The notes below the pieces were generated by a model. That model had not been told where the DNA came from and did not search any database. It saw only the letters and a program-made list of their open reading frames with translations. Positions 2,015 to 28,282 of a DNA stretch of 59,313 bases are shown piece after piece. The DNA comes from a virus. A program made the position numbers and the translations under genes. Each line of letters opens with the position of its first letter. The first letter of the stretch is position 1. The DNA lies in IMG/VR virus record IMGVR_UViG_3300037327_000208, positions 1 to 59,313 of that record. The stretch is one strand, 5' to 3'.

Positions 2015-2019
2015 AGTTT

Positions 2020-2036: not shown

Positions 2037-2093
2037 ACTTAACTAAATACTTATAGCACTGAAATTTATATATAAAGTATTTAAAAATAAAAT

Positions 2094-2118
2094 TTGTCCC
2101 ACTACTTGTCCCACTAAA
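2094..2118. other. Putative integrase arm-type sites, left end
   Basis: Two direct copies of TGTCCCACTA lie at 2095-2104 and 2107-2118, the second extended by AA. The same word occurs near the island's right end (18371-18383), along with the variant TGTACCACTAAAA. Repeats shared by both ends beside an integrase gene are what arm-type binding sites look like. Binding itself is inferred. The rest of the 390-bp stretch from 2037 to 2425 is AT-rich and holds no gene that I can see. Confidence 0.55.
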
Positions 2119-2425
2119 ATAAAAAGTCATTAGGTTTACACTGCGTTTATAAATCTTCAGTTAACATCTTCATAAAAGTGGCGCAAAACTTATTTAACTT
2201 TGTTCTGACCTTAATACTTATTCTATTGTTACCTTCAAAATGCAATTGAGAATGGGCTGCGAGTCTTGCTAGACGATGGGCAGCTATTTTTCAACGAATT
2301 TGGTTAAAGAAACCGACGTTTCGGATTGTTATAGCCTTTGCAGCATTCACTCGCTAAGATAACTTATTGGAAAATTCATTTGTAAAAGATAACATGCAGT
2401 TAGTGCTTAGATTTCTTAGGTTCAA

Positions 2426-5364: not shown

Positions 5365-5372
5365 AGAAGTCG

Positions 5373-6839: not shown

Positions 6840-6841
6840 TA

Positions 6842-8692: not shown

Positions 8693-8696
8693 GTCG

Positions 8697-9080
8697 ATGT
8701 TAATATCTGAAGCTTTTGAAGCCTACGGTGCGACGTTGAATAACATCCAATGGTCTATTTCTGCTTTCAATGATCAAGGCGAATTAGTCGTGAGTCTATG
8801 GGAACATTATTTTGAAAGACGTGTTAAGGGATCTTTAACTTACGTAGATAAAGTTACTCGTTGGTCTGGTAATGGTAATGCTGCTTTTAGAAAACACTTA
8901 CCGTTAGCTTGTGAAGAAGGTCGATTAGTACGTGCCGTGATAGCTAAAAGTGCTAACCCTAATGTGATTGATGCCGGCGGCGCAGGGGCAAATTTAGGTA
9001 ATGCTTTTTCAATCAAAAAAGACTGGGTTGGCAAAGTTATACGTTGGGATGGTGATAACTTTGAGATAGAGTTCAAGTAA
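8697..9080 (+). CDS. Unknown protein encoded directly after hsdS
   Basis: I do not recognise this 127-aa protein. It is soluble, has no signal peptide or membrane segment, and mixes short beta-like segments with aromatic residues (NNIQWSISAF, VVSLWEHYF, KVIRWDGDNFEIEF). It begins 4 bp after the hsdS stop with a good GGTAGG ribosome site, so it belongs to the restriction operon. An accessory or anti-nuclease role would fit the position, but nothing in the sequence shows it. Confidence 0.75.
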   Translation: MLISEAFEAYGATLNNIQWSISAFNDQGELVVSLWEHYFERRVKGSLTYVDKVTRWSGNGNAAFRKHLPLACEEGRLVRAVIAKSANPNVIDAGGAGANLGNAFSIKKDWVGKVIRWDGDNFEIEFK

Positions 9081-9103
9081 TTTAATCACATAAGGAATAA
9101 GTA

Positions 9104-9196
9104 ATGACAGTTTACGAACAGCATAAAGTTTGCCTCAACGAAACTCAAACTATAGAACCTCCTTTAACCAATGAAATGTCAGAGCAGAGTTTATGA
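9104..9196 (+). CDS. Possible 30-aa peptide gene
   Basis: A short frame starts with ATG after a clear AAGGAATAAG ribosome site and ends in an ATGA overlap with another short frame (9193-9318). The second short frame in turn overlaps the start of the HEPN-like gene. This is either a small leader peptide or the shifted 5' part of a longer gene. Support is limited to the ribosome site and the coupling. Confidence 0.3.
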   Translation: MTVYEQHKVCLNETQTIEPPLTNEMSEQSL

Positions 9197-9290
9197 AAGC
9201 AAAAGTCTTCCGACCTGGCATCGATAAGCTGTCCGAAATGACGGCAACGCTACACCCACTAGTTACTACTATCCTGAATATAACCCTGAT

Positions 9291-9959
9291 ATGCAACTAC
9301 TCGGACTTAGTCAACTGATTGAAACCTTAATGCAAAAGAGTTCAGCAAATAGTACAGATATTCAATTAGCTGTTCATACTGGAGGATATTTAGGGCCTCG
9401 TGGAGACAACGAATATCCTGATGATTGCGATTCTTCCAACTATTTTAATGCTTTCATGTCTAGTTCAATAGCCGCCGCATTAGCACAGTTTTTAGAAAGT
9501 TTGATTAAGAATGAAACCTTGGTTATTAAAGCAAGGAGGGCAGACAAGGCTAAAATTTTAGAACACATCAGAACTAAGAATATTTCCAATAATAATGGTT
9601 TTTGGGATGTTAGCAAATATTGGTGTACTGACTCAAATAGGATAGAAAATGGCATAGCGACTGGCACCATCCAACTATTTGATGCATTAAACTTAGGTCT
9701 TCAGCTACCCAATAACTTTGATAATTACATTAAAATATTATTTTTTTACCGAAACTACGTAATGCACAACGGTGTGGAGTGGGAAAAATCACATCGTGAT
9801 AAATTTAAGCAAAGAATTGCGAAAAGCGACTGCAAAGGGTTTGGTTGGTCGCAATCGGATAGCGTAGATAAAGTTTGCTATTTAAAAGATGACTATGTGA
9901 AGGAATTACTGGTTTTTTGTAAAGATTTATGTAAGTTGTTTGATCTGAATCAAATTTAA
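9291..9959 (+). CDS. HEPN-like protein downstream of the restriction operon
   Basis: This 222-aa helical protein carries the R-x4-H signature of HEPN domains, R154-N-Y-V-M-H159, in the context FFYRNYVMHNG. HEPN domains are usually metal-independent RNases in toxins and defence systems, for example the PrrC and RloC anticodon nucleases. PrrC is encoded inside a type I restriction locus and is unleashed when that enzyme is blocked. The gene follows hsdS and the 127-aa gene in the same direction. No ribosome site precedes ATG 9291, and the frame is open for about 16 codons upstream, so the true start may lie further back or have been lost to a frameshift. The HEPN assignment rests on the motif and helical content only. 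Confidence 0.65.
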   Translation: MQLLGLSQLIETLMQKSSANSTDIQLAVHTGGYLGPRGDNEYPDDCDSSNYFNAFMSSSIAAALAQFLESLIKNETLVIKARRADKAKILEHIRTKNISNNNGFWDVSKYWCTDSNRIENGIATGTIQLFDALNLGLQLPNNFDNYIKILFFYRNYVMHNGVEWEKSHRDKFKQRIAKSDCKGFGWSQSDSVDKVCYLKDDYVKELLVFCKDLCKLFDLNQI

Positions 9960-10142
9960 ACATAAAACTGGACACTAGTATCTGCGCGCAATTGGTTAAG
10001 TTCGATGTGAATTTCTCTCGGCTAGATGTGATAAGAGGTACCTGCTAAGATCATGGTTTAATTAGGTTATGATTATGCTCTAAAGTTTACATATAAATAA
10101 TAACCGAAGTAACGGGGTGTAATTTTATAAGTCAGACGCTGT

Positions 10143-10388
10143 TTAACGTAATCCTAAAGTTATAAATGACATTAGGCGCTGCCTGATAGTAGGTTTTAGT
10201 GTTGGCAATGATTTCTTGGTAAATCTAATGCCACTCAAATCAGTTCGGGTGGCATCATCAACCTTGGTTTGCTCGTAGATTCGACCACCATTAGCAGTTC
10301 GTTTTACTTTATCTTCTTGAGTAGCCATTGCATTGATTAAAGGATTTGAATTTGATGTAATATTAGTGTCTACAGAAGGTTTGTTCAA
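10143..10388 (-). CDS. Possible small protein (81 aa), unknown
   Basis: This is a leftward frame rich in Thr, Asn and Lys with no recognisable domain. It has a plausible ATG but lies in a gene-poor stretch full of repeats. I list it because nothing overlaps it. It could be a chance frame or a gene remnant. Confidence 0.3.
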   Translation of the reverse strand: MNKPSVDTNITSNSNPLINAMATQEDKVKRTANGGRIYEQTKVDDATRTDLSGIRFTKKSLPTLKPTIRQRLMSFITLGLR

Positions 10389-10420
10389 TTGCTAAATGAA
10401 TCTCGTTGTAATCTCGTTAT

Positions 10421-10727
10421 CTTCATGGACTTTGTTTAATCATCGACTACTTACTATCGATTACCTGCACTGGCTTTGTTTGACAGTTTAACCTTGCCCT
10501 GTTCTTGCCCCCTTCTAAGAAGTTTGTACGTTTGCCAACGTTATCCTAATGTCACCCTCAACAAGGGGGTTGTTGTGAAGTGCAATGGCATTGTTTACAT
10601 GGGTTTGGTTTATACAACAATTTCAATGTTAAGTTTTATTAAGTTCACATGGGCTTTGTCTATCTACCAATACATCGAACTGTGATTTCAATGTAAGGTT
10701 TTGTGAGGTCCACATGGGGTTTGTATT
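10421..10727. repeat. Five spaced direct repeats around CACATGGGCTTTGTTTA
   Basis: Related 18-21 bp words occur at 10421-10438, 10466-10483, 10594-10614, 10643-10662 and 10708-10727, all in the same orientation. The last two also share about 20 bp upstream (TTTCAATGT followed by a G/T-rich run). They sit in the middle of the 1.1 kb stretch from 9960 to 11129 that lacks convincing genes. In P4-like elements such a position can hold the replication origin or regulatory RNA sites. The function here is unknown. Confidence 0.55.
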
Positions 10728-10775
10728 GGCATCACCCCAATACTAGGTAATTTTAAACCCGAATTTTCACCAAAT

Positions 10776-10973
10776 TTATATTGGAGGTAGTGAACATTTT
10801 ATGTGTTTTTGATGGGCGTTAAGTTGGTTCGTAATCCAATATTTACAATCTTGATGTCTATTATGTCGAACGGTTACTAAGTGCCAATACCCGTCAGTGG
10901 GGCTTACTTCAATTGAACTGATTTTTGCCACTAAATTGTCACTCTTACTCCCAGCTAAAAGGGCAAGTATCAA
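10776..10973 (-). pseudogene. Short frame, possibly a gene remnant
   Basis: The 65-aa frame has only a TTG start, and protein-like sequence continues about ten codons further upstream to a stop. The composition is protein-like (one run of aliphatic residues, several Trp, His and Cys). I see no domain. A decayed gene is the likeliest reading. Confidence 0.25.
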
Positions 10974-11129
10974 CCTATTGCGGTCGTTAGCAATACTGAA
11001 ATTGTGAAGGTGTATTTAATCCATTTTCACTGGTGCAAGATACTTCTATTTTTGCTTATTTCAGATATTTCCAGACATTTCAACAAACCTGACGCCGCAG
11101 TTATTAATAAAAAAAGTAAGTAATAAAAA

Positions 11130-11897
11130 TCACCCACACTGTCTTCCTTCTAGCATTTTGATGGTCCTATCTCTGAGTGTATTACCGGACGATGAATCAT
11201 TATTTGTGGAGCAGTCGAACTTCACTTCTTTTATACTGCACCCCCCTTCAATTGATTTAACATCTCTGTTTTCATCACTTATGGATAAGTATTTATCAGT
11301 GTCATCAAGCGTGTATTTACCATAGAGATTATCTTTATGAGTTTTGGTAAAATACAATACAAGTTTATTAGTGGCTCCGGGTATCAAGCTTGGGTATGTT
11401 CGAGCTTCACCCTTGTAAATCTGAGTTGTTGAATTTAAGGTTAAATCACAGGTATATAAGACCTCTTTAAGGACAGATTTACCCAAGTTTTTAAGCTTAC
11501 TAGAAAACTTGATGGCGTTAATTTTAAGTGTTTGAGCGAGAATAGTATATTCGTTACCTAATTGGTCACCGAGTATATTAACAGGCGTATATTGCAGGCC
11601 AATGTGTTCAACCTTTTCTAGCCGTTTTTTGCGTTCATTTGAATATAATGCCTGCTTTTTTCCAAGAGCGTCATAACCTGCTCTACCATCTCTATATTTT
11701 GTTAAATGGACATCGTCAGGAGTACAGTCAGGTGAATACTTTTTAGCTAGATACCAACACTCTCTATTATTATCATCATCATCATCGCATTGCTCCCATG
11801 CAGATTGCCACTTCTCATCACAAGATTTGAAAAAATCCAATGCATAGACTTTAGATGAAACAGCGATTAGACATATAAACATCCATTTTTTATTCAT
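11130..11897 (-). CDS. Exported cysteine-containing protein of unknown function
   Basis: The 255-aa product starts with a classical signal peptide: a KK pair, a hydrophobic core WMFICLIAV, and a cleavage site after VYA at about residue 19. The mature part has a run of aspartates near residues 38-42 and several cysteines that could form disulfides in the periplasm. The middle region (KLKNLGKS to CDLTLNS) resembles a beta-rich domain. No family comes to mind. A strong GGAGGGAGAG ribosome site lies just before ATG 11897. The gene stands alone in the island, as a cargo or lysogenic-conversion gene would. Confidence 0.75.
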   Translation of the reverse strand: MNKKWMFICLIAVSSKVYALDFFKSCDEKWQSAWEQCDDDDDNNRECWYLAKKYSPDCTPDDVHLTKYRDGRAGYDALGKKQALYSNERKKRLEKVEHIGLQYTPVNILGDQLGNEYTILAQTLKINAIKFSSKLKNLGKSVLKEVLYTCDLTLNSTTQIYKGEARTYPSLIPGATNKLVLYFTKTHKDNLYGKYTLDDTDKYLSISDENRDVKSIEGGCSIKEVKFDCSTNNDSSSGNTLRDRTIKMLEGRQCG

Positions 11898-12177
11898 TGC
11901 TCTCCCTCCTTGTTAAAAATGTGAAAACGAATCACTGCGTTTTAGTATCCTCTTGAGCTCCGTTTTTCGCTCATAGTTGTTTGTCAGGTTAGGTTGAAAC
12001 CTATCAATTTAGACTATCAAATTAAATGTAAACTACTACAGACTATCCAAATCAACACCTATTGTTTATGTTTGTCGAAAAATAAACAAATTTGTTCTGA
12101 TAAAGACTGATGAATTTTTAGTGTATCATATTCTCCAACGTAATTTTGTAGGTCAAGCTTCTATGGGCAACCAAAAA

Positions 12178-12438
12178 TCATTTCATCTTCAAACTTTCTA
12201 CTTGCGAAGCTCCAAAGAGAAAACGAATCGCACCTACACCTAGCACATGACCTTTAACCCATTCTATTTCAACTGCGATATATAGGTCACTATCAGGTGT
12301 ATTTGTTTTTTTATAGCGACTACAATACACACACATTTTTTTAATAAATGGTGTGTTTTTTGCGATTGAGATCAACCTCTGTAATTCTTTTTCCATGTTC
12401 GTCCAGTAAGCTACATAACTAATGTTAATAGAGCACAA
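12178..12438 (-). CDS. Degenerate MNT-type nucleotidyltransferase domain
   Basis: The 86-aa product aligns by eye with the minimal nucleotidyltransferase signature G-S-x10-D-x-D. It reads C-S-R-Y-K-K-T-N-T-P-D-S-D, so the spacing and the two aspartates survive but the glycine is now cysteine. The usual R-A-R-G and I-D-L segments have also drifted. A second start at the internal Met15 (MEKELQRL) looks more natural for this family. MNT proteins are typically antitoxins that modify HEPN toxins. The protein stops right after the motif region, so it is probably a worn or truncated copy. Confidence 0.5.
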   Translation of the reverse strand: MCSINISYVAYWTNMEKELQRLISIAKNTPFIKKMCVYCSRYKKTNTPDSDLYIAVEIEWVKGHVLGVGAIRFLFGASQVESLKMK

Positions 12439-12736
12439 AGAATAAATTCAACTCTTCATGTTTCGACCCTAATTACAAATTTTGAATGCGTAACACCTTT
12501 AAATAAACGGTAACCATAAATGGCATATAGCCACCGAAGAGTGGAAGTTCCTTAGGAGGAACTTTAGTAGCAAACAAAATACTTATAAAATTCTGAGTGC
12601 TAGTGACGGGTTTGTTGGATTACCTGCCGTTGACATCAAAAATCTAAAGATATACAAATTACTTGAACGGCTGGTTTTCGCTCATTGCAGTCACTCGCGT
12701 ATTTTATCAAAACATTTTAATTAGGCTAAAGTGGGC

Positions 12737-12994
12737 TTAAATGGATCGACTTCTACTTGAGTTCATGGACACCCGTTTCTTACCTTCTTGCGTAACTGGG
12801 CCAGTGCTAGCGCCGCCATGGAACTTACAGCGCCCATTTCCCCAACTTGTGCCGTCATTCTTGCAGGGAGCGCCAGAGCGTGTTTTAGCTTCGCACTTCA
12901 TATCACGGCAAAACTCAGGGTAGGGAATTTCATTTCGGTACCAAGCCTTCAAGGCTTTGACTTGTTTGGCTCTCAATATTGGGTCTGCTGTCAT
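12737..12994 (-). CDS. HGG-x-STGP motif protein
   Basis: This 85-aa protein belongs to a phage and island family recognised by C-x-A-K-T-R-S-G-x-P-C followed by G-R-C-K-F-H-G-G-A-S-T-G-P and a basic tail. The two cysteine pairs and the histidine probably bind zinc. It often sits next to replication or terminase genes. Its molecular role is not established. Here it is the last gene of the leftward replication block, beginning 32 bp after the TubC-like gene. Confidence 0.75.
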   Translation of the reverse strand: MTADPILRAKQVKALKAWYRNEIPYPEFCRDMKCEAKTRSGAPCKNDGTSWGNGRCKFHGGASTGPVTQEGKKRVSMNSSRSRSI

Positions 12995-13026
12995 TGGTGT
13001 TTACCTAAGTTTTTGGAATCAGCTAT

Positions 13027-13335
13027 CTATTTAATATTAATCTCAGTTAGGCGGCTTCCCCATCTTATTCGTTGGGCATGGATCGCTTCATTTGTTGTTT
13101 TACTAACAGGATCTAGGCACGTTAATTTTTTGCCGTCTATGATGAGACCTAGCACTGTCATTTTTGGCTTTAAAGTTGTGATGATTTTGAGTTTCCATGC
13201 CACCAGTAAGTCTTTTAATTCCGGTGTTAACTGCGTCTGTTTATCGCCTTTACCATATATAATTAATTTGCCATCGCGTGCTGCTAACGTTAAGCCTTGT
13301 TTGTTAACTAACTCAATAACAAGCCGGGCATTCAT
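13027..13335 (-). CDS. TubC N-terminal docking domain-like small protein
   Basis: The first 55 residues follow the TubC-N pattern seen in short proteins of P4-like elements: a helix (ARLVIELVNKQG), a hairpin (LAARDGKLIIYG), and LTPELKDLLVAWK, in which the LTPEL-x-x-L-L motif is diagnostic. In polyketide systems this fold docks enzymes together. In mobile elements it is encoded beside the primase/helicase, and its partner is unknown. The ATG overlaps the stop of the DUF3631 ATPase gene (ATGA), so translation is coupled. The C-terminal half is unassigned. Confidence 0.7.
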   Translation of the reverse strand: MNARLVIELVNKQGLTLAARDGKLIIYGKGDKQTQLTPELKDLLVAWKLKIITTLKPKMTVLGLIIDGKKLTCLDPVSKTTNEAIHAQRIRWGSRLTEINIK

Positions 13336-14804
13336 ATTGCTTCACTCCAAGTGCCGGGAGCGTCGTCATCCATAGTTTTATCCGTCACACCGTCACACCC
13401 TATATTTTTAGAAGGCTGAGACGTTTTATCATCCGTCACACTAGATAATGATGTGACGGATTTAAAATCTTTGAAAGCCACGTTTTTACTGACTTGTGAC
13501 GGTGTGACGGATAGAAAAGAGGGGGTTAGGTATCGCGCAAATGAATCACTAAAATCATCAACTGAATATCCTTTTTTTGTGACTGCTCCAATGCGTTTTG
13601 TTCCCGGCTTAATACCAAAACCGCTTAATTGCTTTGAAAGTTGACGAGCGGTTAACGATTTTCCGCGATTGTAAGTTAGCCAGGGTCCGTCTTCTATGTT
13701 GAGTAATGCTTCAAGCAGGTCACTGGTAAATATTTGTTTAACTTGTTTTTCTTCAAATATGGTTTGAATATCAGTTAATAACTCTTGGGCAACACTCATA
13801 CTATTATCAACACGGGTTAACTCTAATGCAGCGTTTCTTGCTAATTCCGGCCAACGTCCGCCTGCACATTCAGCTATTATTAAAAGTGGCTCCCAATTAT
13901 CAGCATCTCGGTTTTGTAGCTGCTCTGGCAGTTCTGGCTCAAGTCCTCTGACTTTCTCACCAATATCATTTGTCCACCTAGCTAAGTGCTGTTGAATAAT
14001 GGCAAATTCTGATTTCCCCTTTTTCATCCGATCTGTTTGTTCGTGTGGGCCTTTACGTCTAAGTCTTAAATCTATTGAGCGGCTTTCTATTGTTCCCGCT
14101 CGTTTACCTATTCCAGCGATAGCCTTGGCGCCCCATACGCTAAATAATTTAGGCTCGTTATCATCACCATCGCATCGAATAGTATGTGCGCTTCCTTTGG
14201 TATGTCCTGCATTGATGATGCCCCTGATAGCCTCGTTATCATCTGCAAAGCTGTCAGCTTCATCTATTAGTAATGTTGGTTGCCATTTCTCAATAGATCT
14301 AAACAAAGCGGCGGATGTTATATTGCTGGTTGTAAGTGACTGGAATGCTAAGGCACCAATAAAACTAAGCAAAGTTGATTTACCACAATTTTTTTCCGGT
14401 GCCGTAATATTGGCAATGGGTAAGCACTCGACATAATCAATTAACCAGGTAAGCGTTATCCAAAGGGAGACTGCCGTCCTTGTTGTCTGGTCACAAATAA
14501 CATGACGCTTGCATGCTGCCTCAATTCGGTTTAACAGTTGCTCCCCGTCTACCTCCTCATGGTACATATCTACTCTAGGAAAAATAACGCTATCGTCAGC
14601 TTCATCCTTTTTGGTTAATTCTTTTCTGGTTTTGTAAATTAATGTATCGAGTGTCTTAACTTGAACATTTAGCTGCTTGGCGGCTTTTGTTCTCTGCCTG
14701 TCATAGTCTAAGGTTTCGAGCGCTGCCAAATATGCGATCGCTTGATTGTCATTCATATCAGTTAACAAACCGGCTGTTGTGGCTTTTTCAATAGGGTTAG
14801 TCAT
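13332..14804 (-). CDS. DUF3631 ATPase (replication helicase-like)
   Basis: This 490-aa protein has a P-loop ATPase core. Walker A is APEKNCGKST (about residues 135-144) and Walker B is LLIDEAD (178-184), followed by an AAA-like region with the conserved IESRSIDLRLRRK. It matches the DUF3631 family of mobile-element replication proteins, often fused to or next to a Toprim primase. The C-terminal region (about 345-430) resembles the DUF3631 winged-helix tail. The gene overlaps the Toprim gene by one base, so the two together probably do the work of P4 alpha protein, priming and unwinding DNA. The last 60 residues are Ser/Asp-rich and look disordered. Confidence 0.88.
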   Translation of the reverse strand: MTNPIEKATTAGLLTDMNDNQAIAYLAALETLDYDRQRTKAAKQLNVQVKTLDTLIYKTRKELTKKDEADDSVIFPRVDMYHEEVDGEQLLNRIEAACKRHVICDQTTRTAVSLWITLTWLIDYVECLPIANITAPEKNCGKSTLLSFIGALAFQSLTTSNITSAALFRSIEKWQPTLLIDEADSFADDNEAIRGIINAGHTKGSAHTIRCDGDDNEPKLFSVWGAKAIAGIGKRAGTIESRSIDLRLRRKGPHEQTDRMKKGKSEFAIIQQHLARWTNDIGEKVRGLEPELPEQLQNRDADNWEPLLIIAECAGGRWPELARNAALELTRVDNSMSVAQELLTDIQTIFEEKQVKQIFTSDLLEALLNIEDGPWLTYNRGKSLTARQLSKQLSGFGIKPGTKRIGAVTKKGYSVDDFSDSFARYLTPSFLSVTPSQVSKNVAFKDFKSVTSLSSVTDDKTSQPSKNIGCDGVTDKTMDDDAPGTWSEAI

Positions 14805-15682
14805 TATGCGACCGCCTTATTGTTTATGCTCAGGAAGTAGTCGTTCCAGTCGCTTAAGCCAATCTTTTTTTCTTCTAGGGTAAAAGGTGGAAAACTCACT
14901 TTTGAGCCTGTTTTGTGCGCCGCTTCAATGGCTTTAGATTTACCGGGGTTAATACCTTTAGTTTGCTCTGTCATCCAATCGTCATCACCAGCAATAACAA
15001 TCTCATTATCAGGCCACTTTTTTATAACCGCTTTGGCAACGGGCAATAGGTTACCTGCGTTCATCGCTGCTATAACCGGTTGGCCTGTCATATGATGAAC
15101 ACTTGCTGCAGTTGCGTAACCCTCACAAATATAAATTCTATCGTTTAGAAGGCGACCATTTAATCCTATTAGACATCCTGTACCTGTTATCTGACCTCCT
15201 TTTAAAAACAACTTTGTTCCGTTAGGGGCAATGCGTTGAAGATTCGCTAGTTCATTTGATGCGATGTTATAAAGTGGCACCAATAACCATTTACCAGACA
15301 GTCTGAGACCTTCTACTTGCTCAATACCTTTATTTGTTAGATAAGGGTGAACAACCACTTGTTGAGCCTTCTGGTATTGTGTCTTAGCCTCCTTGGCTGC
15401 TTGCCTCTGATTCAATAGTTTCTGTTGTTTGCTACGCTCTATTGCGTCTTTAATTAATTGCCTATCATCCAAACTTCTCTGGTGGCCTTCTGGTTTCCAA
15501 ATCTCAGTTACACCTGTTAACCAGTCGCCCATGACTAGTAAGTCACCATATGACACATACCAGCCATTCTTACTTTTGGGTTTTGCTGTTGTGGCGACTC
15601 GATGAATTTGTTCGTCTTCTACTAAACAATCCACCAGCAGGCCAAATTGAATAGAGGCGTTAAGTTTTTTTTGATAATTCAT
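14804..15682 (-). CDS. Toprim-domain primase-like protein
   Basis: The 292-aa protein contains a Toprim fold, with the catalytic glutamate in YICEGYATAAS (E187) and the metal-binding DDD at 233-235. The N-terminal third (WYVSYGDLLVMGDWLTG) matches the region preceding Toprim in P4-like primases. No zinc-binding domain of DnaG type is visible. Together with the DUF3631 ATPase encoded downstream it would form the island's replication initiator. Its start codon overlaps the AlpA gene's end, as expected of a compact operon. Confidence 0.85.
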   Translation of the reverse strand: MNYQKKLNASIQFGLLVDCLVEDEQIHRVATTAKPKSKNGWYVSYGDLLVMGDWLTGVTEIWKPEGHQRSLDDRQLIKDAIERSKQQKLLNQRQAAKEAKTQYQKAQQVVVHPYLTNKGIEQVEGLRLSGKWLLVPLYNIASNELANLQRIAPNGTKLFLKGGQITGTGCLIGLNGRLLNDRIYICEGYATAASVHHMTGQPVIAAMNAGNLLPVAKAVIKKWPDNEIVIAGDDDWMTEQTKGINPGKSKAIEAAHKTGSKVSFPPFTLEEKKIGLSDWNDYFLSINNKAVA

Positions 15683-15969
15683 GTTGTCACCCCACGAACT
15701 AGATGCTTGAGTAGTTCGTTCGCAGAAGTCTCACGATTTTTTATTAGCGCTTTAACTATCAGACGGATTTCATCATCTGATTTGCCTATCGATCTAGCTG
15801 CTAATACTGTTTGGACTTCATGAGAAATAAAGCCGACAGCCCTAGCGCCCAGTGATATAGGTGGTGGGAATATTCCTTTTCTGGTTTGTTCGAATAAACT
15901 TGTGTTTGATAGGCCTGCTAAGTTGCAAGCCTCTGGTTTACGAATTACTTTTAAATTGATGTAGTGCAT
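15679..15969 (-). CDS. AlpA-family transcriptional regulator
   Basis: This 96-aa protein starts with the AlpA/excisionase-type winged helix: a recognition segment LSNTSLFEQTRKGIFPPPISLGARAVGF, where GIFP-P-I-LG-R is typical of the family. AlpA regulators of P4-like elements activate excision and integrase expression and switch on the replication block. It is the first gene of the leftward replication operon, with about 130 bp of AT-rich sequence upstream that could hold the promoter. Confidence 0.8.
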   Translation of the reverse strand: MHYINLKVIRKPEACNLAGLSNTSLFEQTRKGIFPPPISLGARAVGFISHEVQTVLAARSIGKSDDEIRLIVKALIKNRETSANELLKHLVRGVTT

Positions 15970-17085: not shown

Positions 17086-18339
17086 TTATTGGTTAACGAC
17101 TCTCAAAGCCTTTCTCGCATTTGCCAAACTCATATTGCCGGTTGCTGCACTTTCAATATGTTCAGACCACCAGCACATTAATGTTCTGCGGCGCTCTAGG
17201 TACTCGGCTCGATTATAAGCGCGTCTAACTTCATTCTTGTCTACATGGGCTAGAGCGCTTTCAATCACATCAGGATCGAAGCCTCTTTCGTTTAATGTGG
17301 TACTGGCTAATGCTCTTAATCCATGTGCGACTAATTGCTTATCAAATCCCATGCGTTTTAGCGCCATATTGGCGGTAGAACTATTTGCATGTGATCGGGG
17401 ATCACGATCGGCAGGAAAAACATATTCTCTATGACCGCTAATTGGTTTAATGAAATCTAACAGTTTTAATGTTTGCTCGGTTAGTGGGACAAGATGATCC
17501 CCATTACCTTTTTTCTTCATATTATCTGCAGGTATTGACCAAAGCTGTTTTTCAAAGTCTATATCTTGCCATTTCGCTGTTGCTGCTTCACTTGGTCTAA
17601 CCATTGTGTGTAATTGCCATTCAATTAAACAGCGCGTCACTATTTTTATACTGGCTATGTTTAATGTTTGCATCAACCTGGGTAGTTCTTCAGGTTTCAA
17701 TGTGGGCAGATGTGTTTTAGTAGGTGTTAAGAATGCCGCATGCATTTTTGAAAGCGGATTAAGGCTAATCACTCCGGTATTAACTGCAAAGTCCATAACC
17801 TCGTTAATACGCTGGCATAGACGCTTAACTTGCTCTGAGTGTCCTTTAGCTTGAACAGGCTTCAACACTTCAATTACTTCTGATGCAGTCAATTCACTAA
17901 TAGGGCGCTTACCAACAGCAGGTATAATGTGCATGTTAATAGAGCGTTTAATTTTACTTGCGTGATCTTTACTAACCTTGGTTGCTTTTACTTCAATCCA
18001 ATCATTCATTATTTTAGTGAACGTATTTGCATTGGCTGCAGTTGCAACACGCTTGGTCTTTTCCTTAAATGCCCGAGGGTCAATCTCGTTGGCTAATAAT
18101 TCATGTGCTTTAGAACGCCTACCTCTTGCCTGAGCTAATGTCACCGTTGGATAAATACCAAAGCTCATATCAACACGCTTATCTGAATAAGGGAGTTTGT
18201 AACGAAAAACCCAATCTTTTGTACCACCAAAACGAACACGTAGAGATAATCCCTTGCCGTCTGTAAGCGTATAATTTTTGTCTTTAGGTTTTGCTCTTGA
18301 TATCTGTGAGTCTGTAAGTGGTTTGGCTATTTTAGGCAT
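17086..18339 (-). CDS. P4-type tyrosine integrase of the island
   Basis: This 417-aa site-specific recombinase has the usual three parts: an N-terminal DUF4102 arm-binding domain (LTDGKGLSLRV and GKYP-like GIYPTVTLAQAR), a SAM-like core-binding domain, and the catalytic domain. Catalytic residues visible are R248 (HTMVRPSEA), H339-x-x-R342 (AHGLRALAST), H365 and the nucleophile in AYNRAEY (Y375). The length is normal and the gene looks intact. It would recombine the att copies at 2020 and 18502 to excise the island. The ATG faces the right att site, where arm-like repeats overlap its promoter region and may let the integrase repress itself. Confidence 0.93.
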   Translation of the reverse strand: MPKIAKPLTDSQISRAKPKDKNYTLTDGKGLSLRVRFGGTKDWVFRYKLPYSDKRVDMSFGIYPTVTLAQARGRRSKAHELLANEIDPRAFKEKTKRVATAANANTFTKIMNDWIEVKATKVSKDHASKIKRSINMHIIPAVGKRPISELTASEVIEVLKPVQAKGHSEQVKRLCQRINEVMDFAVNTGVISLNPLSKMHAAFLTPTKTHLPTLKPEELPRLMQTLNIASIKIVTRCLIEWQLHTMVRPSEAATAKWQDIDFEKQLWSIPADNMKKKGNGDHLVPLTEQTLKLLDFIKPISGHREYVFPADRDPRSHANSSTANMALKRMGFDKQLVAHGLRALASTTLNERGFDPDVIESALAHVDKNEVRRAYNRAEYLERRRTLMCWWSEHIESAATGNMSLANARKALRVVNQ

Positions 18340-18576: not shown

Positions 18577-19782
18577 TTATACTTTGCGTGTTGTGTGGGT
18601 GTTAATTTGTTCAGATTCTTTCTGATATGACTCTATAAACTTACCGTAGTGATTAAATAGCATCTCAGGTGATGCGTGACCCATCCAGTTCGCTAACTGC
18701 CAAATATTTACACCTGCTGATATGTGCATTGTGGCGAATGTATGCCTTGCCTGGTACGGGTATCGATACTGCACTTGCGCCTCTTTTAATATTCTGGTCC
18801 ATCTGTGCTTTCTAAAAGAATCTGGATTGATCCGGTTAAGTTCCCCATCGAGGACTCTAACCACCGTCTTGTAATTCTTGGAAAATACAAACTCACTCAT
18901 GAGATACGATTTAGGCATTTGATCTTGCAAAGCTTCTAACGCTAGATCATTTATCGGGATCGCACGTTTACCGGCTTTGCTTTTGGTTCCCTTTTCAATA
19001 CCATGAACAATTGCTGATCTAACGTTGATCACACGATTCGTAAAATCCACATCAGCCCATCTAAGTGCCGACCATTCCGAACTTCTCATGCCGGTATTAA
19101 ATAATAACTTCACTATGTTTAATTCATCAGCTCTGCAGTGATCATAAATCTTAGATACTTCATCTGGCGCAAAGGGCTTAATATCTTCATGCTCGTTCTG
19201 CAAGCTTACTTTGTTATTTTTTGCCACATAGTTTGATAGGCTTATACCATCTACAGGATTGACCGGTACTAAACCATCAGTGACCGCTTCTGCAAGTGCC
19301 GATCGTAAATAACTAAACTTGTTTCTAAGCGTCTTTGGTGAGTTACCAGACTCTTTTATAAATTGCTTTAAACGGGCAGGGGTTAGCAACTTAACTGGCA
19401 AATCATGCAGCTCAGACAATGCCAGTTTGATTTTGCGGTACCCCTCCAAAGTAGAAGGGGATAATCCGCGTTTGATTGACGATTGCTGATAATCGTCTAG
19501 GTAATCAGCAATCGTCTTATTTTCATTTACTGCATGGCCAAGCACTTTAAGTTTTGAACTGTTAGGAAAAAAATTTGCATACTTAAAAGTTTCTCGTTCA
19601 ATCTGACCTTTAATTTCACCTAATAAGTTTGATGCGTAATTAATATTTTTTTTGTTACCAGGTAAAGATATGTTCTCCCTGCAATACATACCTTTGTAAG
19701 TGAAGGCGATTTGTATTGATTCGCCGCTTTTATTCTCCCTTACGCTTACGCCGCGCGGGAGCTTCCCCCGTTCCTTACCCAT
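18577..19782 (-). CDS. int: Prophage tyrosine integrase
   Basis: The 401-aa recombinase has an N-terminal arm-binding domain of DUF3596 type (GVSVRENKSGESIQIAFTYKG), a core-binding domain (about 90-180) and a catalytic domain. Catalytic residues are R233 in TGMRSSEW, R346 in YQARHTFAT (tyrosine replaces the usual histidine three residues before), H369 in MGHASPEM and nucleophile Y379 in FNHYGKF. Its 3' end is 47 bp from the left att site. The start region overlaps the small xis-like gene, so excision and integration functions are made from one leftward transcript. Confidence 0.93.
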   Translation of the reverse strand: MGKERGKLPRGVSVRENKSGESIQIAFTYKGMYCRENISLPGNKKNINYASNLLGEIKGQIERETFKYANFFPNSSKLKVLGHAVNENKTIADYLDDYQQSSIKRGLSPSTLEGYRKIKLALSELHDLPVKLLTPARLKQFIKESGNSPKTLRNKFSYLRSALAEAVTDGLVPVNPVDGISLSNYVAKNNKVSLQNEHEDIKPFAPDEVSKIYDHCRADELNIVKLLFNTGMRSSEWSALRWADVDFTNRVINVRSAIVHGIEKGTKSKAGKRAIPINDLALEALQDQMPKSYLMSEFVFSKNYKTVVRVLDGELNRINPDSFRKHRWTRILKEAQVQYRYPYQARHTFATMHISAGVNIWQLANWMGHASPEMLFNHYGKFIESYQKESEQINTHTTRKV

Positions 19783-21696: not shown

Positions 21697-22002
21697 CTAA
21701 GCCGCAAAATCACGTTTATTTTCTCTGGCCTGCGCTTCTTTCATGCTTTTAAGCTTCGCCACATCTACAGAAAGATTGTTTTTAAAGTCTTCGAGATAAC
21801 TATTGTCTCGTTTAACCTTTGCTTCAAGCCAAGCAACACCAGCATCAATATTGGTGGGAAAACTACCAAGAAATGTGTTTTTCCCATAAATAGATAACCA
21901 CGTTTGGAATTTATCCCTATTATTCCTTACACCAGGCAAAAGGTTGTCGGAAGGTGCTAAAACTCTTGGCCTCAAGTTTGCGATTGTGATTTTATTAGCC
22001 AT
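21697..22002 (-). CDS. Early phage protein, unknown (101 aa)
   Basis: This is a basic 101-aa protein. Its middle part (FQTWLSIYGKNTFLGSFPTNIDAGVAW) resembles an AP2/ERF-like or similar small DNA-binding fold with a K-x-x-x-L-G-x-F pattern, but the match is weak. It abuts the 86-aa gene and overlaps the exonuclease stop by one base. Confidence 0.65.
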   Translation of the reverse strand: MANKITIANLRPRVLAPSDNLLPGVRNNRDKFQTWLSIYGKNTFLGSFPTNIDAGVAWLEAKVKRDNSYLEDFKNNLSVDVAKLKSMKEAQARENKRDFAA

Positions 22003-23816
22003 TACGCAGCCTCACCACTTGCATACTGACGAGCCATTGCTAGAGCATGTTTCTTGGGCTCTATTATTATTTTTGTTTCTTTTTGCCCCGCTAGATAACC
22101 GGCTGCGAAAGCGGCTTCAATTAACGATGGCAAACGGCCAAAAACACTCTTAGTTAAACCGTTAGCGGTGTTAGGAGTAGACGCAGGAGCAACAGGAGTA
22201 TCTACAGACTCACTGGTTGTATGGTTGTTGCCAGTGCGTTGGGTTAAGCGTTCGTCACTGATACCTCTTTCGTATGCGCCCTCAGATTGCCTTCTGGCTT
22301 CTAACTGTTCAGCATCCTTGGTTGCTTGAGCATCTAAAAAATACGCCTCTATTTCATCAGACGATTTTTTGGCTCTTGCATTTCTTAAACTGGCTTCTTC
22401 GTCAAGTTTGGATTTTTCAGCCGCAGCCTTAGCAACATTTTCAGCATTAACCTTAGCTTGTTCAGCCGCAGCTTTAGCAGTTGCCTTGGCTTCTTCTTCA
22501 ATGCGTATCTGTTCACGTTGGGCATCCAAGCGAATCTGCTCTGCTTCTTTGTGTTCAGCTATGCGAGTTTTAACCATGGCTTGAAAATCATCGTTAGCTT
22601 TGAATGCAATGTCGCGCCAATCAGAAAACAAAAACTTAAACTCTTTGAAACTTTGCATAAACGATGCGTTTTCATTGACGATGTAAAGTTGTTCACCAAG
22701 TAATATTTTTATTTTTGAAACAGCTGTGTCTGCGGCATCCTGCAATGAATCAATAGTTTTTTTACCTTTCATTGCATTGATGATTGTAGTATTTACGCTT
22801 TTTTCGTCTACAGGAGGGTTAACACCAATTTGTGTGAAAAATTTATAATTATCGCTAACCTTTGTGGTTGCTTTAACAGCTATTGATTCGCGCAATTCTT
22901 CCTTACGCGATTTAACAAGCTTTGATTCGCGTAATCTTGATTGGCGAAGTTGCTCTTTTATTTCACGTAAGCTGTTAACGAATGCGCTAATGTCGGCAGA
23001 TTCACTTAGCGCCAACTCACAAGCATTATCACAAGCAGCTTCGCCGCGGCTAAACGTTTTTTGTCTTGCTTCTGCATCAGCAAAGTCTTGATCCGTCTGT
23101 GGCGTACCATTACTTCTTTCTATTAGTGCAAGTGCTTTAAGGTGGAAATCATCCAGGTTAGACTTTAACGCCATACCATTCATCTGGTACTTAATAGCCG
23201 GTAAGTCGCTTATTACTTCTGCTACAACCTTTTCAGCCTTAGCCTGTGGCTCATGGGTTTCTAAATCGATAGCGAACTGCGCCCAGCCTGCGATTAATTG
23301 CTCACGTCGCTCAGGTATGGAGTAGTAATACATATCAGCCCAATTTTCGTCAGTGCCATCACTGGTAACAAACAAAACTTTATCTGCGCCTGAGACTAAT
23401 AATTGATGCTCCAATTGCCAATAATAATGTGGTTCAAGTTTGTTATTTCTGACGTTTTCAGCAAGCACTTTGTTGTACAGCTTGTGTTCAAAAAGAACAT
23501 CACCAAACAATGACATACCATCAAATGAAGCAAGAAACATTGAATCTTCCAGCACACCAACTACTACTACAAAATCTTCATCTGCCACATGTTCTGCGAT
23601 AGGTCTTGCCATTTCCTCGGTAGCATGACCTTTATCAAAAAGTGACTGAGTAAAATCATTCACATCAGTCGTCCAGCCTTTTTTATGATCAAGCAACTGT
23701 GTGCGGCTAATGTTTTTATGTACGCCAAACATGGCCGATGCTTCTGAGGCGTTTTGATGATCCAAACGAAATAAAAGCCATTCTTTTGTGCCTGGAATAA
23801 GTTTTAACTTTTTCAT
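22002..23816 (-). CDS. YqaJ-type phage exonuclease with long coiled-coil tail
   Basis: Residues 1-200 form a lambda-exonuclease/YqaJ nuclease. The opening GTKEWLLFRLDHQNASEA is typical, and the PD-(D/E)XK residues are D99, E110 and K112 in SFDG and FEHK. The enzyme resects duplex ends to give single strands for the RecT partner encoded immediately downstream (4-bp overlap). The length, 604 aa, is far above the 200-350 aa of a simple nuclease. The extra part has a helical middle domain and, at about 410-510, an Ala/Glu/Lys-rich coiled coil. The coil may multimerise the enzyme or hold the annealing protein. Confidence 0.87.
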   Translation of the reverse strand: MKKLKLIPGTKEWLLFRLDHQNASEASAMFGVHKNISRTQLLDHKKGWTTDVNDFTQSLFDKGHATEEMARPIAEHVADEDFVVVVGVLEDSMFLASFDGMSLFGDVLFEHKLYNKVLAENVRNNKLEPHYYWQLEHQLLVSGADKVLFVTSDGTDENWADMYYYSIPERREQLIAGWAQFAIDLETHEPQAKAEKVVAEVISDLPAIKYQMNGMALKSNLDDFHLKALALIERSNGTPQTDQDFADAEARQKTFSRGEAACDNACELALSESADISAFVNSLREIKEQLRQSRLRESKLVKSRKEELRESIAVKATTKVSDNYKFFTQIGVNPPVDEKSVNTTIINAMKGKKTIDSLQDAADTAVSKIKILLGEQLYIVNENASFMQSFKEFKFLFSDWRDIAFKANDDFQAMVKTRIAEHKEAEQIRLDAQREQIRIEEEAKATAKAAAEQAKVNAENVAKAAAEKSKLDEEASLRNARAKKSSDEIEAYFLDAQATKDAEQLEARRQSEGAYERGISDERLTQRTGNNHTTSESVDTPVAPASTPNTANGLTKSVFGRLPSLIEAAFAAGYLAGQKETKIIIEPKKHALAMARQYASGEAA

Positions 23817-24691
23817 GCTGCTTTTTCCTTATTTAATTCCATAATTTGTTTTTTAAAATAATCAGATAACGGGGCGTATTTTTCTTCCAACATATCGATT
23901 AAATCAACAGGGTCTTTGCCAGCGTTAATTGAATTTGCCCACTTATTTGCTTTTTGATTAAGTTCATCTTGAGTGAAGTCAGGCTTGTCAGCTTTGGCGG
24001 GTGCTTCACCTTCGCTTGACTCTCTTATTGGATTGACAACCTTTTCAACCGGCGCTTTTTCTGGCTCAAGTTCGTCAGAAGAATAAACACCCATAATTAC
24101 CGCAGGCGCATACAAACGAGCCCAATATTTAAGTGCCAGATAACCGCTTTGCTGTTTCGGGTTGGTTTTCCATAAAGCTGAATTTTTCGTGGTTACATCG
24201 GCAGGGTATAAACGCTCACCCCATTGAATTTTATCTTCGCCAGAAAGTATTGCGCCAACACTAACCCAACATGTTTTATCAATGGTATTACCCATATTGA
24301 CATTGACACCCGACTGAATTTTTTCTGCCGAGCCATTACCTTTAACTTCCCAGTTACCGCCATATTCATAGTGAAAGCGGCCATTGATAGCTTTAGATGA
24401 TGATATAACCGCATTAACTAGTTGCGCTTCATAGCCAAGCGTTCCGCTAACTACGTGCGTCTTTTGGGCTACTGCAAAAGGGTTCATTCTCCATTGTGCT
24501 GCTTGCATAATAATTGCCATGCAATCCGCTGGATTACCTTGTAGATGCTTTGGAACAGTCGCCTGACCGTTTGCCATTAGATTAGCTAACGTGTTCATTG
24601 ACTCCATAGCTCTATAATCTAGGATCATGTCTGTTGTGGAAACATGGGCAACGTTAGTGCCAGGTTGATTGTTTTCTGCTGAATTGCTCAC
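23813..24691 (-). CDS. RecT-family single-strand annealing protein
   Basis: The 292-aa protein follows RecT closely: LANLMANGQATVPKHLQGNPADCMAI, then QAAQWRMNPFAVAQKTHVVSGTLGYEAQLVNAVI. It anneals complementary single strands made by the exonuclease and drives phage recombination. The translation start is GTG at 24691, chosen because GAGGTG lies nine bases upstream and because the codon overlaps the stop of the 43-aa frame before it (GTGA). The C-terminal 80 residues are charged and probably flexible. Confidence 0.92.
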   Translation of the reverse strand: MSNSAENNQPGTNVAHVSTTDMILDYRAMESMNTLANLMANGQATVPKHLQGNPADCMAIIMQAAQWRMNPFAVAQKTHVVSGTLGYEAQLVNAVISSSKAINGRFHYEYGGNWEVKGNGSAEKIQSGVNVNMGNTIDKTCWVSVGAILSGEDKIQWGERLYPADVTTKNSALWKTNPKQQSGYLALKYWARLYAPAVIMGVYSSDELEPEKAPVEKVVNPIRESSEGEAPAKADKPDFTQDELNQKANKWANSINAGKDPVDLIDMLEEKYAPLSDYFKKQIMELNKEKAA

Positions 24692-25521: not shown

Positions 25522-26277
25522 TTAAGCTACCTTGCTGAAAAATTTGTTTTGAAAGTACATCTGGCCCTTTGCTGTAATAAGCGTTTTAAACCAAAGTTGA
25601 ATTTCACCGTTCTGATCTTTGCGAGTTTTCTCTTGAAGTTTGAATAAACCTTGATCAACGTACTTCTGGTAAGGTCTATTTCTTTGACTAAAACTATCCA
25701 TCACATAACTTCCTTCACGAAGCATGGCGAAAAGCTTGTTTTGTCCTGTGCCAACTGATTTGGCAAAGTCTCTGATACAAACGCTATTGATTGAATCGTT
25801 AACCGCTTCGGCAAACGCTATTTTGGGTTGTGCGGCTTCAAGCTTTTCTGCCAAGTCAGCAGCTAAACGTAATGACTCAGCAAAACTCTTAGGCATATTC
25901 TGTTGTGATTGGTAGGTGCCAGTCTTACGAATAGAAGGAAGGACTTCACCAACCACCCAATCTTCAAACTTTTCAGCCTCTGGCATTTTCGAACGCATGA
26001 TTAAACGGTAAACGTCACGTTCTGGAATTATTTGATATTGAGTTACGGATTGATTGTGAGAATAACCAGCTGCTCTACATGCCTTGTAATCACTGGATAC
26101 TAGCAATTCGCTACCACCTATAAGTTTAACGTTCTTACAATGGTCTTGAATCGCTTCTGACGTATTTGCATAACCAAGTAGATCAGCAACATCCTTTGCA
26201 ATAAACATTGGCTCACCGTTTTGATCAATTACTCGGACTTCACTTGATTTGAATTTGAAAGGAATTACGTTGCTCAT
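25522..26277 (-). CDS. Phage antirepressor, BRO-N plus KilAC domains
   Basis: This 251-aa protein joins a BRO-N domain (about residues 10-115: VRVIDQNGEPMFIAKDVADLLGYANTS and IPERDVYRLIMRSKMPEAE) to a C-terminal KilAC DNA-binding domain (ending TAKGQMYFQNKF). Such antirepressors inactivate the CI-type repressor or turn on lytic genes. It is the first gene of the leftward operon that also makes RecT, exonuclease and Dam. Its promoter carries the same 21-bp sequence as the cro promoter, so CI would silence it in the lysogen. Confidence 0.87.
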   Translation of the reverse strand: MSNVIPFKFKSSEVRVIDQNGEPMFIAKDVADLLGYANTSEAIQDHCKNVKLIGGSELLVSSDYKACRAAGYSHNQSVTQYQIIPERDVYRLIMRSKMPEAEKFEDWVVGEVLPSIRKTGTYQSQQNMPKSFAESLRLAADLAEKLEAAQPKIAFAEAVNDSINSVCIRDFAKSVGTGQNKLFAMLREGSYVMDSFSQRNRPYQKYVDQGLFKLQEKTRKDQNGEIQLWFKTLITAKGQMYFQNKFFSKVA

Positions 26278-26293
26278 TTAATTGCTCATTTAA

Positions 26294-26342
26294 GTAAAGT
26301 GCAGACTTACATTAAATATACATTACGCCTTAGTTGTGTCAA
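26294..26342 (-). promoter_or_regulatory. Leftward antirepressor promoter with CI operator copy
   Basis: On the minus strand TTGACA (26342-26337) and TATATT (26320-26315) are 16 bp apart, a near-consensus sigma-70 promoter. The 21 bp directly after the -10 (26294-26314, core GTAAAGTGCAGACTTAC) are identical to 27842-27862 at the cro promoter. A repressor bound there would cover the transcription start. Confidence 0.75.
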
Positions 26343-26376
26343 GTATAGATTTACAATTATTTTTAATAGGCACAAA

Positions 26377-26399
26377 AAACCCGCTCGATTGGCGGGTTT
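26377..26399. terminator. Rho-independent terminator
   Basis: AAACCCGC (26377-26384) and GCGGGTTT (26392-26399) form an 8-bp stem with a 7-nt loop and flanking A and T runs. It separates the cI operon coming from the right from the antirepressor promoter. Confidence 0.85.
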
Positions 26400-26493
26400 C
26401 TATTTTTATTTGCAGATTGTTTTGTTTTTCTTACTGAGACAAATACAATTTCTTGCGACTAAGTAAAGATGTGAATAATAAGAAAATGTGGCC

Positions 26494-26967
26494 TTAACCT
26501 TTGTTTTTAGAACTATTGTAAATCATATATTTAGCAGTCAGCGCATTTGTGACAACGATACTAAGCAAAGCATGAATGATCGCCCAAGATGCTAGAATTC
26601 CAGCGCATGCTGCAAAAACTAAAAAAAGATAAGCTGGTTGTTGTGATATCCCACCTGCAACAAAAAAGATAATAGCTAACAAAATATGTATAACAGTACT
26701 AATTACACTTAAGGTACTACCAACATTAAAGGCACTTTGAGCTTTATTTAAATCTGCTTGGTGTGGGTTTTTATTACCAGTGTTACTGGTAATTGATTCA
26801 TTCTTAGATGAAAAATTTGTATCAATCACCCACGTTTTACCTACTATTTTTCCAACATAAGTACCGTCTCGGATCATTTCTATCACCTTGCTTTCTTCCA
26901 TATTATTGGCTTTAGCAAACGACTCGGCAGTAATCAATCCTTCTGTAGATTTAATGTTTTCTGACAT
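26494..26967 (-). CDS. Membrane protein with N-terminal HTH, co-transcribed with cI
   Basis: This 157-aa protein begins with an excisionase/MerR-like helix-turn-helix (LITAESFAKANNMEESKVIEMIRDGTY, then a GKTWVID wing). After a polar linker come two hydrophobic segments at about residues 83-110 and 117-145. I place the start at ATG 26967, where AAAAGGAATAAC lies directly before, rather than at the longer frame that overlaps cI. It begins 11 bp after the cI stop and ends before a terminator, so it is expressed in the lysogen. Superinfection exclusion is a reasonable guess. The combination could also mean a membrane-tethered regulator. Confidence 0.75.
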   Translation of the reverse strand: MSENIKSTEGLITAESFAKANNMEESKVIEMIRDGTYVGKIVGKTWVIDTNFSSKNESITSNTGNKNPHQADLNKAQSAFNVGSTLSVISTVIHILLAIIFFVAGGISQQPAYLFLVFAACAGILASWAIIHALLSIVVTNALTAKYMIYNSSKNKG

Positions 26968-26978
26968 TGTTATTCCTT

Positions 26979-27785
26979 TTAATTCCAAATGCTTGACGAC
27001 CAAAACACACGGCCAATAATATTCACAAGCTCACGATTACCTAATTTTAAAATTTCGTCTGGATGCTCTGATCCATTAAAACTATTAATTCTCAACCCTC
27101 CACCTGGCAACATATATAAACGCTTAATACGCAATAAACCATCATGGTTAATTGCATAGGTCTTTCCGTCAACTACGCGTTTATCGCCTAGGTTAACACC
27201 AACAACATCACCGTCAAGCAGACGAGGCTCCATACTATTCCCTGAAATTTTTACGCAAGCTGCATTAGATGGATCTACTCCGCAATTTCTTAGAGTTGAT
27301 TTGCTAAACCTTAATTTAGGTCCATGATTTTCTTGAGTCAATTCCGAGCCTGCTCCTGCTGCTAATTCTACATCCATAAAAAATGGTAGTTCCACTTCAT
27401 CATCGTCTAGTGGTGTAGAGCTATCCCAAGAATCAATATGACCGAGATTGAGGCCTACTGGAATGTCTTGCCTTAAATTTTTTCTAATTACCTGCAATGA
27501 ACTATTAGTTTTACCAGCTCTAAGTTCAGAACTTGTCGTTCCTTTTCTTTCTGTAAATTCTGCACCAAAAACTTTATCCGGTATCGGTCTGTCAAGATAC
27601 GCGCTGATTTTTCTAAAATGCCTTTTATCAACTTTTCCATATTTACTCCAGTCTCCAACAGCTTGACGAGTCACGTCACACAAGTCAGCAAGGTGAGACT
27701 TCTTTTTGCTTTTGTCTGAGAAGCCTTCAGTAAGCCATTTTGCAATGGCTTTTTCTTCTTCTGTGGGGGATTTTATTCTATTCAT
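26979..27785 (-). CDS. cI: CI-type repressor with S24 autopeptidase domain
   Basis: The 268-aa repressor has an N-terminal helix-turn-helix (LADLCDVTRQAVGDWSKYG, residues 32-50) and a C-terminal LexA-like peptidase. The catalytic serine is S184 in SGNSMEPRL and the lysine is K221 in LLRIKRLY. The self-cleavage bond is probably an Ala-Gly at 143-144 or 145-146 (LAAGAGS). RecA filaments formed on DNA damage would trigger cleavage and induction. It diverges from cro across about 100 bp with the 21-bp operator. A second operator copy lies at the antirepressor promoter. Confidence 0.93.
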   Translation of the reverse strand: MNRIKSPTEEEKAIAKWLTEGFSDKSKKKSHLADLCDVTRQAVGDWSKYGKVDKRHFRKISAYLDRPIPDKVFGAEFTERKGTTSSELRAGKTNSSLQVIRKNLRQDIPVGLNLGHIDSWDSSTPLDDDEVELPFFMDVELAAGAGSELTQENHGPKLRFSKSTLRNCGVDPSNAACVKISGNSMEPRLLDGDVVGVNLGDKRVVDGKTYAINHDGLLRIKRLYMLPGGGLRINSFNGSEHPDEILKLGNRELVNIIGRVFWSSSIWN

Positions 27786-27832
27786 AATCGCAATTATGCT
27801 TTGAACTTAAATCAAATAAAACCAATCCCCAC

Positions 27833-27862
27833 TTGACATATGTAAAGTGCAGACTTACATTA
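27833..27862 (+). promoter_or_regulatory. Rightward (cro) promoter with CI operator
   Basis: TTGACA at 27833-27838 and TACATT at 27856-27861 are separated by exactly 17 bp. The 21-bp operator (27842-27862, core GTAAAGTGCAGACTTAC) fills the spacer and -10. The same 21 bases recur at 26294-26314. Transcription would start near 27868, just before the cro ribosome site. Confidence 0.8.
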
Positions 27863-27891: not shown

Positions 27892-28080
27892 GTGAAACCA
27901 AAAATAAATAAAAACAGAGTTGCAAAACACTTTGGTATATCTAGGCAAGCTGTGGGTCAGTGGTTTGAAGGTGAGATTCCACCAAAAAGAGTAATAGAGC
28001 TTGAAAAGATAACTGGAATACCTCGCCACGAACTCCGCCCAGACATTTACCCACCTGAAGAATACAAAAAAGCCAGCTAA
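27892..28080 (+). CDS. cro: Cro-type repressor
   Basis: The protein is a small Cro: INKNRVAKHFGISRQAVGQWFEGEIPPKRVIELEKITG, with the helix-turn-helix AKHFGISRQAVGQWF. It represses early transcription and blocks cI expression during lytic growth. I chose GTG 27892 because GGAG lies five to eight bases upstream and because earlier starts (GTG 27847, ATG 27865) fall inside the promoter and operator. From there the protein has 62 residues, the usual Cro size. Confidence 0.87.
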   Translation: MKPKINKNRVAKHFGISRQAVGQWFEGEIPPKRVIELEKITGIPRHELRPDIYPPEEYKKAS

Positions 28081-28093
28081 TAGGGATTTATCT

Positions 28094-28282
28094 ATGTATG
28101 CAAATGAACGTTTAATCAAAAAACATGAAGTAAAGGTACGTTTTGACGACGACATAAACGAGATGCTTGACGCTATTGTAAAAAGCACTGGAGGACAAAA
28201 AGCAGTTGTAGTACGTGACATATTTTTGCGCGGCCTCAACGTAGTAAACGTAAATCATGTTACTGACAATATAGAAGCATGA
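28094..28282 (+). CDS. Ribbon-helix-helix DNA-binding protein
   Basis: This 62-aa protein has the ribbon-helix-helix layout: a basic beta strand KHEVKVRF, then two helices DDDINEMLDAIVKSTGG and KAVVVRDIFLRGL. It occupies the position of cII in lambda-like phages, directly after cro. It is probably a transcription regulator of the early rightward operon. Whether it activates lysogeny like CII cannot be told. Confidence 0.7.
   Translation: MYANERLIKKHEVKVRFDDDINEMLDAIVKSTGGQKAVVVRDIFLRGLNVVNVNHVTDNIEA

Follow-up and report, generated by a model that had tools for sequence, protein, structure and literature searches.

Matching putative CI operators at the cro and ant promoters of a lambda-organised prophage

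An annotated antirepressor gene (ant) at the head of a prophage operon raises the question of what controls it, and whether its product acts back on the repressor of the same prophage. In the window, by which we mean the whole 59,313-bp stretch of viral DNA analysed here, the original prediction was that the CI repressor, bound to one 21-bp sequence at two promoters, shuts off both the cro and the ant operons and that the antirepressor reopens both by positive feedback. We conclude that this is, very probably, the immunity region of a lambda-organised prophage, in which CI represses a rightward promoter (PR) and a leftward one (PL) through matching sites, ant expression being a consequence of induction. 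Closure of both operons by CI probably holds, given the palindromes, the co-variation of sites with repressors and the cleavable type of CI, but the loop is left unsupported.

RESULTS

A repeated palindrome at two predicted promoters

A scan of the whole record found GTAAAGTGCAGACTTACATTA in exact copies at 26294-26314 and 27842-27862, with no further match at up to three mismatches in the 59,313 bp. The repeat had 0 matches in 100 dinucleotide shuffles, so that none is expected by chance. Scanning IMG/VR with the exact operator returned no additional copy. The original prediction that the same 21 bp lies at both promoters is thus confirmed, and the promoter elements and the position of the repeat relative to them are as it described (Table 1). 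Promoter-like matches were no commoner than in shuffled sequence (6 found, 6.5 expected), and PR and PL are therefore predictions supported by their placement.

The functional unit is probably the 19-bp palindrome TGTAAAGTGCAGACTTACA (TGTAA-N9-TTACA) inside the repeat. A palindrome scan gave one strong and one weak site, 44 bp apart, at the left promoter (OL1 and OL2) and a single strong site at the right promoter (OR); no OR2- or OR3-like second or third site was detected between cI and cro at up to six mismatches. OL2, the third-best match to the palindrome in the window, is a weaker copy that the original prediction had overlooked.

Table 1. Positions of the predicted elements and genes of the immunity region and left arm
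Feature	Position	Strand	Basis
OR, putative operator TGTAAAGTGCAGACTTACA in spacer and -10 of the cro promoter	27841..27859		perfect TGTAA-N9-TTACA; sole strong site between cI and cro
OL1, same putative operator, 1/19 mismatch, just 3' of the left-promoter -10	26293..26311		shares the exact 21-bp repeat (26294-26314) with OR
OL2, degenerate putative operator, TGTCAAGTATAGATTTACA (TGTAAATCTATACTTGACA on the - strand)	26337..26355		4/19 mismatches; overlaps the left-promoter -35
Predicted PR (cro promoter), TTGACA-17-TACATT	27833..27861	+	promoter scan; 21-bp repeat covers spacer and -10
Predicted PL (left/ant operon promoter), TTGACA-16-TATATT	26315..26342	-	promoter scan; 21-bp repeat abuts -10
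cI repressor, 268 aa, N-terminal lambda-repressor-like HTH and C-terminal S24	26979..27785	-	Pfam S24 2.6e-20; profile and Foldseek matches
cro-like repressor, YdaS/P22 Cro-type HTH, GTG start	27892..28080	+	Pfam YdaS 3.2e-13, P22_Cro 6.4e-8
Predicted membrane protein gene, 158 aa, 3' of cI, rex-like position	26494..26970	-	gene calls, annotation searches
Terminator-like hairpin separating the cI unit from PL, with a T-tract on each strand	26377..26399		+ strand, terminator scan; - strand T-run, read directly
ant, Bro-N and KilAC, annotated antirepressor, left operon gene 1	25522..26277	-	Pfam Bro-N 8.9e-25, ANT 3.7e-27; phrog_130
RecT-like annealing protein, left operon	23813..24691	-	domain/phrog searches
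YqaJ/RecE-like exonuclease, left operon	22002..23816	-	domain/phrog searches
Tyrosine integrase, far end of left arm	18577..19782	-	domain/phrog searches
Immunity cassette exchanged as a unit in L083/L084/L089	26275..28497		homology to relatives returns at 26274 (ant codon 2) and at about 28498

Organisation of the locus

The overall order is int...recE-recT-ant <- OL <- cI <- OR -> cro, with cI and cro divergent; the cI transcript may be leaderless. From PL, the presumed left operon runs through ant, two small genes, RecT, the YqaJ/RecE exonuclease and more small genes to the integrase, and in the rightward direction the Cro-like HTH gene is followed by a small conserved gene and replication genes. 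Right of cro, at 28094-28282, a small phrog_4113 protein is encoded that is kept in three relatives (L003, L085 and L086) despite their differing repressors. The membrane protein encoded between cI and the left promoter is a candidate for superinfection exclusion. At the start of ant, a 12-bp tandem duplication (26270-26293) creates an in-frame mini-ORF, ATG-AGC-AAT-TAA, just before the ant ATG.

Other elements lie further out. At the right end, past the tail genes, is a tmRNA gene (57563-57920, minus strand; tag ANDENYALAA), and on the left side of the phage integrase is another integrase gene (17086-18339, minus strand); these may be two tandem elements with ssrA as attachment site. Left of the phage is an island (272-15969) that, from its translations as read, includes AlpA-like, toprim/primase-like and helicase-like genes next to the second integrase, together with a replication-protein-like gene and type I restriction-modification genes (2426-8692), and that resembles a satellite or defence island. 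The best match of a host-flank gene in plasmid records was 65% identity, to Pseudoalteromonas.

Features of the CI repressor

CI has the Ala-Gly, Ser, Lys and fold of S24 autocleaving repressors, with the residues at A143-G144, S184 and K221. Among 19 relatives, Gly144 and Ser184 never vary and Lys221 hardly does, and the S184-K221 spacing of 37 equals that of S119-K156 in LexA. An AlphaFold model shows an N-terminal domain of five helices, with residues 40-49 as the recognition helix, and a C-terminal S24 domain that resembles lambda CI, 186 CI, LexA and UmuD' (Foldseek). Profile searches matched the HTH domains of the P22 C2, 434 and lambda repressors; the N-terminus alone as query returned no relatives. 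With this fold and these residues, RecA-dependent self-cleavage of CI is likely. The original prediction had singled out S184, rightly in that Ser184 is the S24 catalytic serine; its 'cleavable S184A control' was mistaken, as S184A would be non-cleavable. The recognition helices of Cro and CI both read RQAVGxW, which suggests that the two proteins may read the same operators.

Exchange of the immunity cassette in relatives

Relatives with different repressors were retrieved by searching with Ant. One of them, L084, shares 99.96% identity with the window across 6.75 kb, from ant codon 2 leftward; beyond that codon it carries its own operators and a 218-aa repressor with an unrelated N-terminus and a C-terminus that is 48% identical. 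In L089, a third member of the L083/L084 type, homology to the window returns at about 28498, giving an exchanged cassette of about 2.2 kb. This cassette contains both operator regions, cI and cro and excludes the body of ant. The swap at ant codon 2 is the most interesting detail of the arrangement. The duplication that forms the mini-ORF coincides with the recombination junction of L084.

Other relatives differ more widely. In L085 (3605-4746), where the ant/recombination context is the same, the repressor is a 128-aa protein without S24 and the next gene encodes a kinase that is weakly HipA-like; the Ant of L085 is 72% identical to that of the window. L086 has a different S24 repressor with a different HTH. 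The left operon of L095 starts with another gene, and RecT precedes ant.

Operators co-vary with repressors

Each of five repressor types has its own dyad, and each dyad is present at both the cro and the left-operon promoter: the palindrome described above in the window, RCAAG-N5-CTTGY in L083/L084, TGTACCT-N3-AGGTACA in L085, TWAGGA-N2-TCCTAWT in L086 and AGTAGR-N4-YCTACT in L095. An ungapped comparison of segments lacked the power to pick up palindromic sites (41/100 shuffles for L086; for L098 it gave no shared segment, at 89/100), and a dyad search without a preset motif was therefore used on the five types, with L098 left out. In the resulting 5 x 5 table the cognate OR/OL pair has the highest score along both its row and its column, tied in the case of L083. 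The cognate score was reached by 1, 7, 0, 0 and 1 of 200 shuffles for the window, L083/L084, L085, L086 and L095, respectively, the L095 operator region having been chosen after inspection.

Over the 9-14 kb around each relative, the L083, L085, L086 and L095 motifs are confined to these two places, a scan that shows exclusivity and not discovery, since the consensus strings were written from seen sites. In all four of these relatives OL holds two motif copies. The number of operators at OR varies from one to four among relatives, with three or four in L083 and L086. Looking for paired sites in related prophages, the check that the original prediction had proposed, thus turned up different cognate pairs at both promoters.

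Paired operators among CI relatives

We also took the 1.5 kb downstream of cI in 32 non-redundant loci with CI relatives and compared each locus with 12 shuffles. The OR dyad recurs there above all 12 shuffles in 18 of the loci, against 2.5 expected, and no more than in shuffles in the other 14. A relative of Ant lies on this downstream side in only 2 of 80 CI loci. Paired sites that mostly occur without ant there indicate that paired operators belong to the repressor architecture and not to antirepressors. In most other genomes found with Ant that have an identifiable S24 repressor, cI is opposite in direction to ant, and these were not taken as cases of the arrangement. An Ant search in 369 genomes of one class, that of Veronia, gave no useful relatives.

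DISCUSSION

A proposed switch

The arrangement is a standard lambda OL/OR and is not special to antirepressors. We propose that CI dimers would bind the strong OR within the cro promoter, together with OL1 (strongly) and OL2 (weakly) at the left promoter, and that bound CI would block RNA polymerase at both. In the lysogen, cro and the replication genes would be silent rightward, as would the ant-RecT-RecE-(int) operon leftward. Upon DNA damage, RecA-assisted self-cleavage of CI, at A143-G144 and with S184 and K221, would release both promoters together; Cro probably occupies the same sites. Because ant comes first in the PL operon, Ant would be made only after release of CI, as a result of induction, as an early infection function or as a factor acting in trans on other repressors. 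Control of ant by LexA, of the Gifsy, 186 or N15 type, found no support: the window contains no CTGT-N8-ACAG box, a consensus that is enterobacterial only.

Possible roles of Ant

Could the 21-bp repeat be chance, or a recent duplication without a regulatory role? Just two exact copies exist, with none elsewhere in IMG/VR, as such an origin would have it. Against it stand the chance expectation of zero, the palindromic form, the position at both predicted promoters and the equivalent but different pairs in relatives, and we regard it as highly improbable. With CI control of ant as the preferred reading, what Ant itself does has several possible answers. Ant has Bro-N and ANT/KilAC domains (Pfam) that place it in the Bro-N/KilAC (P1 Ant-like) family, P1 Ant being of the KilAC type, and its 'antirepressor' label derives solely from this homology. 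The family is annotated as antirepressor, a point in favour of a loop in which CI represses ant, Ant inactivates its own CI and release becomes self-reinforcing. Moreover, P1 Ant1/Ant2 work as antirepressor (PMC8546580), and the repressors that P22 Ant inactivates include several besides its own C2 (PMC3121763). Yet the CI that accompanies a near-identical Ant has an unrelated N-terminus and only 48% identity at the C-terminus, and the repressor next to a 72%-identical Ant is a 128-aa protein lacking S24, which argues that Ant is neither matched to, nor co-inherited with, its CI. Moreover, CI itself is probably cleavable, so Ant would be unneeded for SOS induction, and P22 induction does not require P22 Ant. 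FsoA of Fels-1, which is likewise encoded in a left operon and CI-controlled, has no apparent role in the induction of its own phage (PMC3121763). We disfavour positive feedback and judge the loop unlikely.

The Fels-1 case also bears on action in trans, in which Ant would act on the repressors of co-resident prophages once its own CI is lost: the Gifsy-2 repressor is inactivated by FsoA, whose own expression is controlled by a cleavable CI-like repressor (PMC3121763). Conservation of Ant irrespective of the local immunity type agrees with this reading, but FsoA is small and of no demonstrated kinship to Bro-N/KilAC, and we hold such crosstalk to be rather doubtful. An early PL-operon function directed at the host or at DNA, like lambda kil and not an antirepressor at all, is a distinct possibility, if still short of an even chance. 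Phi11 Gp07 shares both domains and, when over-expressed, stops E. coli cells from dividing by way of KilA-C (PMC5944126), although over-expression toxicity is weak evidence. The Ant structure model (pLDDT 75, pTM 0.41) weakly matches the DNA-binding Ski/Dachshund and DdrC folds, but none of the fold matches is significant (best E 0.078).

Only tentatively, therefore, do we suggest that Ant may be a broad-range or immunity-independent module, plugged into any immunity cassette by recombination at its start codon. If so, a phage would release an agent against the repressors of other phages upon loss of CI, whatever its own immunity type. The relatives amount to a natural experiment, with the ant and recombination operon in common and repressors and operator pairs that differ correspondingly. 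They allow testing whether a Bro-N/KilAC 'antirepressor', a very common annotation, hits its own repressor, others or none.

Comparison with known systems

Lambda OL/OR is like the window in its matching palindromic sites at the cro and left-operon promoters, with cI between them and a CI of the cleavable type, in a left operon with recombination genes and int, and in a gene in the rex position next to cI. As in lambda, the immunity region exchanges as a cassette of repressor and both operators (L083/L084/L089 versus the window). Unlike lambda, with three sites at OR, the window shows one strong OR site, a number that varies in relatives and hence is not treated as essential; its OL1 is 3' of the -10, its left operon begins with ant and the sites are TGTAA-N9-TTACA.

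Salmonella Fels-1 FsoR/FsoA likewise has a left-operon antirepressor gene controlled by a cleavable CI-like repressor, whereas FsoA is a small GftA/GfoA-type protein, not Bro-N/KilAC, and its known target is the Gifsy-2 repressor (PMC3121763). In the E. coli Qin prophage, a lambda-like repressor has operators at the dicC and dicB promoters (dicA/dicC/dicBp) and is itself the target of an antirepressor, Rem, but DicA is without a cleavage site and rem lies outside the repressed operon (PMC10448788). Phage P1, with C1 and Ant1/Ant2, shares a phage antirepressor called Ant; in contrast, P1 Ant synthesis is under c4 RNA, and the C1 operators are asymmetric and dispersed over 22 sites (PMC8546580). 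The CI proteins of phi80, Aaphi23 and HK225 are about 38% identical to that of the window over about 90% of its length, but a different N-terminal specificity is expected. The OL/OR layout is already known from lambda, and the window adds another prophage lineage to it.
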